A stretch of 64,000 nucleotides of DNA from an uncultured Chitinophagaceae bacterium (GTDB taxonomy: Bacteria > Bacteroidota > Bacteroidia > Chitinophagales > Chitinophagaceae), in contig CAIQDX010000040.1 in NCBI GenBank assembly GCA_903870685.1, positions 1-64,000 of the forward strand, in the 5' to 3' direction. Below are positions 31,041 to 33,416 of the stretch, piece by piece. Within the stretch, counting starts at the first letter, position 1. Every line of letters begins with the position of its first letter. The notes under the pieces were generated by a model. The model worked only from the letters and a program-made list of their open reading frames with translations, was not told the DNA's origin and did no database searches. The position numbers were made by a program, and so were the translations under genes.

Positions 31041-31492
31041 TTTTTATAAACATCCGGATTAAACCGCGTCATAAATCTATTTGATAGTTCTTCGGTAACT
31101 CTTGTCCAGCCAAATTGTTCATATAAACCGTGTGCATCTTTTGTACCTAACAACCATCTTCTTAAGTTTAATAATTCGGGATGCGATATAATAGTTGCCA
31201 TTAAAAATTTTGATAAACCTTTTCCTCTGTATTCTTTCAAAACAAAAACATCAGCCAAATAAGCAAATGTTGTTTTATCGGTTATTAATCTTGCGAAACC
31301 AATTTGTTCTTGCAAATGATATAGACCAAAACATAAAGAATGTTCGATAGAATTCTTAACTGTTTCGAAAGGAATATCTTTAGCCCAATAACTTTCTTGC
31401 GATAAATACTTGTGTATAACTTCAATATTTAATTTTGAAGTATCGGTACTAATCAGGTAATCGTCCTTACTATTTTCATAAAAACTATTCAT
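31031..31492 (-). CDS. GNAT family N-acetyltransferase
   Basis: 153 residues, a minimal GNAT domain. LADVFVLKEYRGKGLSKFLMATIISHPEL contains the acetyl-CoA loop (R-G-K-G-L), and GLYEQFGWTRV is motif B. The N terminus begins a little before the fold, and the C terminus ends after FMTRFNPDVYKKVE. Closest resemblance is to small arylamine- or antibiotic-type acetyltransferases; substrate unknown. Its first eight bases overlap the end of the pseudouridine synthase gene, so the two are co-transcribed. Confidence 0.85.
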   Translation of the reverse strand: MNSFYENSKDDYLISTDTSKLNIEVIHKYLSQESYWAKDIPFETVKNSIEHSLCFGLYHLQEQIGFARLITDKTTFAYLADVFVLKEYRGKGLSKFLMATIISHPELLNLRRWLLGTKDAHGLYEQFGWTRVTEELSNRFMTRFNPDVYKKVE

Positions 31493-32072
31493 GAAATAAT
31501 TTTTTGTAAATAATTTTTTTTGAAAGTTCTATCATTTCTCCGGGTTTCAAATCATTCAATTCAATTTTTTCAATGCGATAACGAATCAATCTTAAAGTTG
31601 GAAAACCAATCGATGCTGACATCTTTCTTACTTGTCTATTCTTACCTTCTGTTAAAATAATTTTTATCCAAGCTGCAGGAATTTCTTTTCTGAAACGAAT
31701 CGGTGGAATACGTTCAACAACATTTGGTTCTGTTTCAAATAATGATGCAATACATTTTTTTGTATGATATTTTTTTCCATCAACGGTAATATCAACGCCT
31801 TGTTGTATTTGCTGTAATGCTTTCTGTGTGGGCATTCCGTCAACCTGAACCCAGTATTCTCTTTCGTGTAAAAAATTGGGATGTAATAAACGATGATTCA
31901 AATTTGTATCGTTCGTTAATAATAATAATCCTTCACTATCGTAATCTAATCTTCCAACCGGATAAACATCTTTTGCAACAGCAAAATAATTTTTCAATGT
32001 TTGTTTATCATGTTGCGAAGTGAATTGCGATAATACTTGGTATGGTTTATATGTTATAAAATAGTGCAACAT
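31485..32072 (-). CDS. rluE: 23S rRNA pseudouridine synthase, RluE/RsuA family
   Basis: 195 residues. Isomerises uridine to pseudouridine in rRNA. The catalytic Asp lies in YPVGRLDYDSEGLLLLTND; the second family block is ILTEGKNRQVRKMSASIGFPTLRLIR. There is no N-terminal S4 domain, which fits RluE (E. coli target U2457) better than RsuA or RluB, so the symbol is a best guess. A strong intrinsic terminator ends nine bases before the ATG; transcription must either read through it or start very close to the gene. Confidence 0.85.
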   Translation of the reverse strand: MLHYFITYKPYQVLSQFTSQHDKQTLKNYFAVAKDVYPVGRLDYDSEGLLLLTNDTNLNHRLLHPNFLHEREYWVQVDGMPTQKALQQIQQGVDITVDGKKYHTKKCIASLFETEPNVVERIPPIRFRKEIPAAWIKIILTEGKNRQVRKMSASIGFPTLRLIRYRIEKIELNDLKPGEMIELSKKIIYKKLFHE

Positions 32073-32080
32073 CGTTCAAT

Positions 32081-32148
32081 AAAAAAATCCCGCAGATGCG
32101 GGACTTTGTATATGGATGGGTTAGTAAGTACTGGGAAATAAATTTCCC
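32081..32148 (-). ncRNA. Candidate 68-nt structured RNA or attenuated leader upstream of rluE
   Basis: A complete small transcription unit on the minus strand: a promoter (32153-32183), predicted start at 32148, a first hairpin GGGAAAT-TT-ATTTCCC (32133-32148) at the very 5' end, a single-stranded stretch, then a second hairpin TCCCGCA-TC-TGCGGGA (32088-32103) followed by seven T. No open reading frame of note lies inside. It may be a free small RNA, or an attenuator that controls rluE nine bases downstream. No known family was recognised. Confidence 0.5.
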
Positions 32149-32152
32149 TACA

Positions 32153-32183
32153 CAATATTATAAATAGTTTTCGCCAATACAAA
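32153..32183 (-). promoter_or_regulatory. Promoter of the candidate small RNA
   Basis: On the minus strand TTTG (32180-32183), 19 bases, then TAATATTG (32153-32160), seven of eight matches to TAnnTTTG. Counting five bases past the final G gives a start at 32148, exactly the first G of the 5' hairpin. Confidence 0.5.
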
Positions 32184-32423
32184 AAAAATAGCAAACAATT
32201 TTATTAACATTTTTGTTTGATATGTGAATTGCAAGAAACGTTTTTAATGAAATGATTGGAATATTGTTTGCAATTTTTTTAATAAAACGAGATGAAATTT
32301 TTTTTCGATGATAATTAAAACCTGTCTGTTGTTAATGAAAGAAGTAAATATTTTTTGAGTAAAACATATTTTAAAAGGCAAAATAATTTTTTGAAACTGT
32401 GATAATGAAGATGCAATATTCTT
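32161..32423. other. Non-coding AT-rich gap
   Basis: Apart from the -33 box of the small RNA promoter at its left edge, this stretch between the candidate small RNA and the lpxD promoter holds no gene, hairpin or repeat that I can support. It is very AT-rich and has homopolymer runs. Confidence 0.6.
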
Positions 32424-32468: not shown

Positions 32469-33416
32469 ATGAAATTTCCTTCACCTGTTTCTTTGCAATG
32501 GATCGCAACATTAATTGATGCTGAATTAATTGGCAACATCAATGCCGAAGCTACTGGCATCAACGAATTACATAAAGTTTTACAAGGTGATCTTGCTTTT
32601 GTAGATCATCCAAAATATTACAATACTTGTTTAAACAGTGATGCAAGTTTTATTATCATCAACAATAAAGATGTTACAATACCAACCGGAAAAGCGTTGC
32701 TTGTTACTGCAGAACCTTTTGAGGCATATTTAAAAATTGTAAATCATTTTCGTCCTTTCACTCCTTCCAATAAATCAATAAGCGATTCGGCTATCATTGG
32801 CGATGCAACTGTTATTATGCCCAATGCTTTCATTGGTAATCATGTTAGCATCGGCAATAATTGTATCATTCATCCAAACGTTGTAATTAATGATTACACC
32901 GTTATTGGAAATAACGTAATTATACAAGCAGGAACTGTAATTGGTGGCGATGCATTTTATTATAATGGAAAAAAGAACAGAGAAGTTATGTATAAACGAA
33001 TGCAGAGTTGTGGTAATGTTGTGATTGAAGATAATGTTGAGATTGGCTGCAACTGCACAATTGATCGTGGTGTTACTTCTGAAACAAGAATTGGCAAAGG
33101 AACAATGATTGATAATTTAGTTCATTTAGGTCACGAAGTTGTTGTTGGAAAAAATTGTTTGATCGCAACACAAGTTGGAATTGCCGGCGCAACAACTTTA
33201 GAAGATGGTGTTATTTTGTGGGGACAGGTTGGCGTGAACAAAACTATTACAATTGGTGCCGGTGCAGTTGTTATGGGACAAGCTGGTGTTACCAATACAA
33301 TAAAAGGAAATAAAGTTTATATGGGCACGCCGGCAATTGATGCCGGAGAAAAAAGAAGAGAATTTGTTTGGGCTAAACGTATTCCTGAATTATGGAAGAA
33401 AGTAATGGAATCATAA
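32469..33416 (+). CDS. lpxD: UDP-3-O-acylglucosamine N-acyltransferase LpxD
   Basis: 315 residues. Adds the N-linked 3-hydroxyacyl chain to UDP-acylglucosamine in lipid A synthesis. The N-terminal uridine-binding domain (residues 1-90, with GINELHKVLQGDLAFVDHPKYY) is followed by the left-handed beta-helix of hexapeptide repeats (about 100-280), including IDNLVHLGHEVVVGKNCLIATQVGIAGAT with the catalytic His, and a C-terminal helix. The gene stands alone, not with lpxC/fabZ, so it could be the second LpxD-like copy many Bacteroidota have. Its stop overlaps the convergent SDR gene. Confidence 0.87.
   Translation: MKFPSPVSLQWIATLIDAELIGNINAEATGINELHKVLQGDLAFVDHPKYYNTCLNSDASFIIINNKDVTIPTGKALLVTAEPFEAYLKIVNHFRPFTPSNKSISDSAIIGDATVIMPNAFIGNHVSIGNNCIIHPNVVINDYTVIGNNVIIQAGTVIGGDAFYYNGKKNREVMYKRMQSCGNVVIEDNVEIGCNCTIDRGVTSETRIGKGTMIDNLVHLGHEVVVGKNCLIATQVGIAGATTLEDGVILWGQVGVNKTITIGAGAVVMGQAGVTNTIKGNKVYMGTPAIDAGEKRREFVWAKRIPELWKKVMES

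Follow-up and report, generated by a model that had tools for sequence, protein, structure and literature searches.

On the minus strand of the window (the whole stretch of DNA analysed, 64,000 nt in length), a promoter, a 5′ hairpin, a linker and a terminator can be read in the sequence from 32183 to 32081, immediately before a gene for an rluE-like pseudouridine synthase. Does this compact unit serve as a switch on the neighbouring gene, or is it a small RNA gene in its own right? The reading favoured here, at a probability of about 0.6, is based upon comparison of sequences. The unit would encode a trans-acting base-pairing RNA, termed sRNA-A, with a second RNA, sRNA-B, as its partner or antagonist, and with sites in mRNAs that abut their terminators. 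The features of the sRNA-A locus are as follows.

32081–32148, minus strand: sRNA-A, predicted 68-nt transcript (covariance model R1 matching 261/294 genomes, fold z −5.9, covariation)
32180–32183, minus strand: −33 promoter element TTTG, read from the sequence; relatives are T-rich here and the G is not always kept
32153–32160, minus strand: −7 promoter element TAATATTG, the same in all 17 sequences first aligned, which were themselves picked with AATATTG
32133–32148, minus strand: 5′ hairpin GGGAAA-UUUA-UUUCCC, 6 bp with loop UUUA (covariation, double-sided changes in 6/6 pairs, 94.8% of cells paired)
32116–32130, minus strand: 15-nt single-stranded core UACUUACUAACCCAU, defined by its conservation boundaries; mean unpaired probability 0.92; exact complement of an sRNA-B stretch
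32081–32107, minus strand: intrinsic terminator, the stem sequence varying with compensatory changes

Starting at the upstream end, TTTG is followed by 19 nt, then by TAATATTG, and after a further 4 nt by the G at 32148. The Bacteroidetes promoter is described as TTTG/TANNTTTG with 4–5 nt to the start (PMC6847099), a spacing that suits the predicted start at 32148. The promoter and start had been proposed in the sequence-only reading, and both are borne out, with a single mismatch to the consensus in the −7 element. The RNA then folds directly into the 5′ hairpin. This had been drawn with the 7 bp GGGAAAT/ATTTCCC; the hairpin itself stands, with 6 bp and the loop UUUA. Following the linker the strand forms the GC-rich terminator hairpin that had also been recognized, with a stem of 10 bp when AAAG/UUUU is counted and a T-run at 32087–32081. 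The predicted folding energy of the 68-nt RNA is −21.6 kcal/mol, compared with −8.4 (sd 2.2) for 200 shuffles (z −5.9), and holds no long open reading frame, in keeping with its earlier description as an RNA of this length without coding content. Both the promoter and the intrinsic terminator are predicted elements, and from them we infer that the unit is transcribed, as is sRNA-B below.

Close rluE loci with sufficient flank number 22, and 17 of them, the window's among them, carry the element upstream of the gene; these 17 motif-chosen sequences were used to build covariance model R1. It matches 261 of 294 Chitinophagaceae genomes, mostly in single copy; for 13 of the genomes without sRNA-A the absence is deduced from the sRNA-B match rows. 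By covariance models sRNA-A occurs in 93 and sRNA-B in 96 of the 101 genera sampled. R1 has matches in 63 of 248 genomes drawn across the order, 60 of these in Chitinophagaceae, and the three matches outside the family score 29.0–31.8 bits and lack the combination of promoter and core. All 14 matches in a phylum-wide draw of 395 genomes fall inside Chitinophagaceae (in both draws family membership is given for the matching genomes, not for unlisted non-matching ones). A pattern scan of named genomes found at least 119 stretches with the sRNA-A pattern; R1 was run on 100 of these and matched 100. Named isolates among the matches listed include Chitinophaga, Niastella, Niabella, Sediminibacterium and Flavitalea, and a few MAG titles among them name other groups.

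The secondary structure is general. In 93 distinct sequences, whose alignment was fitted to the model, all 12 modelled pairs of both stems exhibit double-sided changes, and the 94.8% of cells that are paired compare with a mean of 72.6% in shuffles. Without model alignment, a local hairpin of at least 4 bp is found in 101 of 114 distinct 5′ segments. Among 184 distinct sequences chosen by a motif regular expression, 163 have a hairpin before the core; in 19, which form a variant clade, it is replaced by a hairpin enclosing the core in its loop, and in two neither form is seen. A covariance search in related genomes had been suggested in the sequence-only reading as a check, and such a search finds the element in 261/294 family genomes, with both stems covarying. 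On comparative grounds sRNA-A is very probably a free-standing small RNA gene that has been kept across Chitinophagaceae.

The most conserved part of sRNA-A is the unpaired core of the linker, more so than the arms of the hairpins. Four core bases that played no part in picking the sequences, T, A, A and T, are conserved in 182, 172, 183 and 183 of the 184, compared with 164 and 151 for the bases flanking the core; the conserved block thus ends where the complement to sRNA-B ends. The core is predicted to be accessible, with a mean unpaired probability of 0.66–1.00 in 34 genomes.

The two genes that flank sRNA-A are located as follows.

31485–32072, minus strand: rluE-like pseudouridine synthase gene (Pfam PseudoU_synth_2), downstream of sRNA-A in 50/107 loci
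32469–33416, plus strand: lpxD, divergent neighbour (Pfam LpxD and Hexapep, given as 32475–33416), in 83/94 loci

The ATG of rluE is located at 32072, 8 nt past the T-run of sRNA-A. There is no room for a further promoter within these 8 nt, so in the window's genome read-through of sRNA-A may feed rluE. An rluE leader, in which the two hairpins would pair alternatively and so let the terminator gate read-through, gains from this tight junction and from the presence of rluE downstream. However, by tblastn in loci with enough flank, the gene follows in just 50 of 107, compared with 83 of 94 for the divergent lpxD upstream. The 82 loci with flank on either side divide into 35 with both genes, 37 with lpxD only, 6 with rluE only and 4 with neither, and sRNA-A is kept in several genomes (such as G007, G008, G023, G025, G026 and G030) in which the rluE relatives are only distant. 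The TCCC/GGGA pairing between hairpin arms, which the sequence-only reading had thought possible, can form in only 67 of the 184 sequences and so is not general; moreover it is the linker that is conserved, not the arms. An attenuator was rejected on the grounds that rluE is not always downstream and that mutually exclusive hairpins are not conserved, and a leader function of this kind is highly improbable. Of the two possibilities offered from the sequence, a free small RNA or an rluE attenuator, the former is supported and the latter falls, given the 37/82 loci in which the RNA lies by lpxD and rluE does not follow.

The complement of the core leads to the second RNA. Among 59 genomes the 13-mer complement ATGGGTTAGTAAG is found 72 times, in 36 of the genomes, compared with 10 matches for the reversed control. 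It is present in 34 of 36 family genomes, in 28 of these at two or more places, and once in 2 of 23 other members of the order. Besides the antisense of sRNA-A, these sites belong mostly to a single unit, sRNA-B, which is laid out as TTTTG, ∼18 nt, TAATTTAG, ∼12 nt and AUGGGUUAGUAAGUA, followed by a terminator with a covarying stem. The unit thus has a predicted promoter and terminator of its own. The predicted RNA is ∼55 nt in length, with AUGGGUUAGUAAGUA a few nucleotides before the terminator stem. In the window's genome it lies outside the window.

G000:C21:5444–5533 (in L303): sRNA-B, with the core complement site at G000:C21:5490

Covariance model R2 of sRNA-B, built like R1 from motif-chosen sequences, matches 274 of 294 family genomes; of 24 matches inspected, 21 exhibit the core at the match, the weak matches L424 and L425 lack it, and L414 was read at another place. 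The gene following sRNA-B clusters with the genome's own radA in 30 of 31 cases, and begins 0–398 nt after the terminator (29 loci measured of 36 tried). We take its product to be RadA from its features, the domains having been found in the own copy. Both RNAs are present in 253 of the 294 genomes, neither in 12, sRNA-A only in 8 and sRNA-B only in 21, in a table compiled by hand from the two match lists. The association has Fisher p = 3.6e-8, or 3.4e-8 in the 249 more complete genomes, uncorrected for kinship, and the genomes that miss one or other RNA cluster in a few genera. In 59 genomes, a subset of those with both RNAs, the two are located on one contig in 47 and within 45 kb in 24 of these; the strand is shared in 22, and in 21 sRNA-B precedes sRNA-A on it by 4–45 kb.

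Most of the sRNA-B sequences inspected contain AUG GGU UAG, and from that AUG there is no frame beyond the UAG. A minimal open reading frame of this form was rejected, the AUG being changed in G021, G141 and G249. A type I toxin–antitoxin pair was also rejected, as this requires a small toxic peptide encoded by the RNA and sRNA-B offers AUG GGU UAG only.

In the window's genome sRNA-B contains a stretch that UACUUACUAACCCAU of sRNA-A complements exactly. Across 34 genomes all 15 of 15 Watson–Crick pairs can form in 19, 13–14 in 14 and 12 in one, and the conserved stretch of each RNA is the stretch complementary to the other. The duplex energy is better than the mean of shuffled sRNA-A in 34/34 genomes, but in 17 of them at least one of 50 shuffles bound sRNA-B more strongly. 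Duplex energy alone is therefore no proof, and the argument is the exact and conserved complementarity. Compensatory substitution between sRNA-A and sRNA-B, which would lend support to a trans-acting RNA, was looked for in the two RNAs and not found, the changes being G–U wobbles and mismatches only. Genus g19 has changed on both sides at the same position, with an A.A mismatch replacing C.G: sRNA-B reads AUGAGUUAGUAAGUA in 5/5 genomes (L403, L408–L411) and sRNA-A reads CUUACUAACACAU in the two genomes inspected (L096, L493), with the 11-nt core GUUAGUAAGUA intact on the sRNA-B side. Further uncompensated mismatches are internal or several in G031 and G005, and are at the end in G012, G180, G862 and G869.

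An abundant antisense RNA is expected to cause avoidance of its site elsewhere. With a reversed-pattern control the complement of sRNA-A appears to be avoided, with 2 sites (sRNA-A and sRNA-B themselves) against 32 in 1.6 Mb; genome-wide avoidance is gone under a Markov expectation, in which the k-mer background is modelled, and was rejected. What is expected of a trans-acting base-pairing RNA is nevertheless found in a conserved seed of predicted accessibility and in a conserved complementary partner encoded elsewhere, and from these we infer that a duplex forms; sRNA-A probably pairs with sRNA-B.

Some related sites are located at the 3′ ends of mRNAs. In 18 genomes GKGTTAGTAAG shows no excess overall, at 75 matches compared with 88 when the pattern is reversed. 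Removing one sRNA-A and one sRNA-B per genome leaves 39 further sites, of which 12 are followed by a terminator, compared with 100 of 6000 random positions (40 sites were judged in this test, the extra one, L331 in G027, coming from outside the 18 genomes). Eleven of the 12 terminator-linked sites lie 4–50 nt past a stop codon on the sense strand and the twelfth lies 238 nt after recA; the remaining 27 look like background. The terminator-linked sites are these.

recA, 3′ site: G007, G023 and G096
HTH and S24 peptidase repressor gene, 3′ site: the window's genome, G002 and G012
Disulph_isomer gene, 3′ site: the window's genome and G020
TonB receptor gene, 3′ site: the window's genome and G002
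OmpA gene, 3′ site: G007
small unnamed gene, 3′ site: G030

One member each of the recA, S24, Disulph_isomer, TonB and OmpA groups was checked against Pfam. Outside the 18 genomes, G027 also has a recA site, which was missed by the terminator filter. In the window's genome the three 3′UTR sites each differ from the complement of the 15-nt core by a single mismatch.

Three further observations concern related sequences. The sRNA-A form of G259 would pair fully with ATGTGTTAGTAAGTA, a 3′UTR form of the window's genome. An A-type core, CTTACTAACCCAT, is located 64–65 nt past a 477-aa frame (cut) and before a terminator (L321 and L324 at 1501; also L100, L101), and is possibly an mRNA-borne copy of the sRNA-A core. 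In three genomes a unit with CTTACGATGGGTTAGTAAGTA and a terminator lies beside a divergent gene that, judged by eye, resembles hsp20 (L308 at 1501, L325 at 1501, L343 at 1001).

Two elements lie upstream of the sRNA-A promoter.

32201–32209, minus strand: upstream element TGTTAATAA, commonest form TGTGAATAA, 49 nt before TAATATTG
32223–32231, minus strand: upstream element CAATTCACA, 13 nt from its inverted partner; degenerate, CACA-type, in relatives

Among the 45 loci where a match was obtained, 36 have the commonest form or one close to it exactly 49 nt before the −7 element. Nine of 54 loci are without a match, including one that has no upstream sequence and three that are weak second copies. 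CAATTCACA and its partner resemble DnaA boxes, as does a similar half-site at sRNA-B. There T[AT]TNNACA stands close to a single offset, to within 3 nt, at 24 of 44 promoters; of the 20 without it, 11 belong to the variant clade or G005. The element is absent at both RNAs in G015, G024 and G029, and is present at sRNA-A and not at sRNA-B in G005. The agreement between the two units on a common upstream element is partial. The inverted arrangement TTWTNCACA-N13-TGTGNAWAA (32231–32201 in the window) occurs at six places in 17 genomes, four of them at sRNA-A; the other two (L293 and L294 at 1501–1531) lie upstream of a small open reading frame near a response-regulator-like gene. A replication origin, suggested by the inverted TTWTNCACA sites, was rejected, as sRNA-A is located ∼0.56 to 3.6 Mb from dnaA in the complete genomes compared. 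The GC skew changes sign several times in the window, and the paired inverted form was not found in the dnaA upstream regions inspected.

The sequence-only reading had not recognized a known RNA family, and this agrees with Rfam 15 (Flavo-1 and 6S-Flavo included), in which neither the RNA of the window nor six related loci have a match at gathering score. For the sRNA-A and sRNA-B stretches of the window's genome, the matches at E up to 10 lie far below gathering scores. Flavo-1 (RF01705) and 6S-Flavo (RF01685) are described as lineage-restricted noncoding RNAs of Bacteroidetes (PMC2864571) and are alike in this respect, but neither is listed at E up to 10 for these two stretches. No published title on sRNA-A or sRNA-B was found among the top-ranked literature results. 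GibS of Bacteroides thetaiotaomicron is comparable as an intergenic small RNA of Bacteroidota with an unstructured conserved seed that pairs with targets, in a genus described as being without an obvious Hfq or ProQ homologue. However, GibS is described as conserved within Bacteroides, with its seed in the 5′ part and pairing around start codons (PMC7366714 for both statements), whereas in sRNA-A the seed is central and follows a 5′ hairpin, a complementary partner RNA exists, and sites lie in 3′UTRs. The Caulobacter RNA sponge (PMC12559287) and the PinT antagonist (PMC12721325) are each described as a small RNA that pairs with and antagonizes another. For sRNA-A and sRNA-B the antagonism is deduced only, and they are two separate genes kept through the family.

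These features suggest how the system might work. sRNA-A would be a stand-alone, trans-acting RNA of ∼68 nt made from its own promoter and terminator. The likely role of the 5′ hairpin is to protect the 5′ end and to hold the linker open, so presenting a core, UACUUACUAAC (extended, UACUUACUAACCCAU), that would pair with RNAs bearing GUUAGUAAGUA. sRNA-B, transcribed from upstream of radA, would be the main partner of sRNA-A and its dedicated antagonist or sponge. Judged by sequence it is a separate RNA with a target-like stretch that could pair with sRNA-A; the role of sponge, and with it the direction of control, is a tentative assignment. sRNA-A might also act on the 3′ ends of a few mRNAs that have a site between stop codon and terminator, where pairing at the terminator foot would most likely alter the stability of the mRNA; an effect at these mRNA ends is possible, but short of probable.

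Other explanations of the conserved block dispense with pairing, or put it to another use. It could be a 15-bp site read by a protein, either as a DNA operator after each promoter or in the RNA, and placed in opposite orientations in sRNA-A and sRNA-B. The near-invariance of the block in both RNAs (in part a result of how the sequences were picked) would fit this, as would the double change in genus g19, which is not complementary. However, the 12 terminator-linked sites share the orientation of sRNA-B and its order of site then terminator, which is unexpected for a DNA operator, and the block is predicted to be single stranded in sRNA-A; a protein site is distinctly unlikely. Alternatively the terminator of sRNA-B could be an attenuator in a radA leader, with sRNA-A binding upstream of the stem to change read-through into radA in trans. 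The pairing site does lie a few nucleotides before the stem, and in 30 of 31 cases it is radA that follows, 0–398 nt past the terminator in the loci measured. Yet many radA genes have a −7 element like TTACCTTTA or TTATCTTTA a few nucleotides before the ATG, as judged by eye, and the same site layout is found in 3′UTRs, so that control through a radA leader is unlikely too. The pairing of two separate RNAs remains the preferred reading.

To our knowledge the foot of a terminator is an unusual target position for bacterial small RNAs, and we know of little study of small-RNA control in Bacteroidota. Neither RNA is present in Rfam 15, so annotation that relies on Rfam misses both. A broader function may be imagined, in which a two-RNA switch across the family sets a group of DNA-repair genes (radA, recA and the S24-type repressor) by pairing at the terminator foot. 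Similar DnaA-box-like elements stand upstream of both promoters in many genomes, and such a switch is a conjecture, more likely wrong than right. The evidence on the two hairpins before rluE favours a regulatory pair of RNAs over control of the gene next to them, and sRNA-A and sRNA-B provide a directly testable RNA–RNA system in Bacteroidota, with candidate targets in DNA repair.
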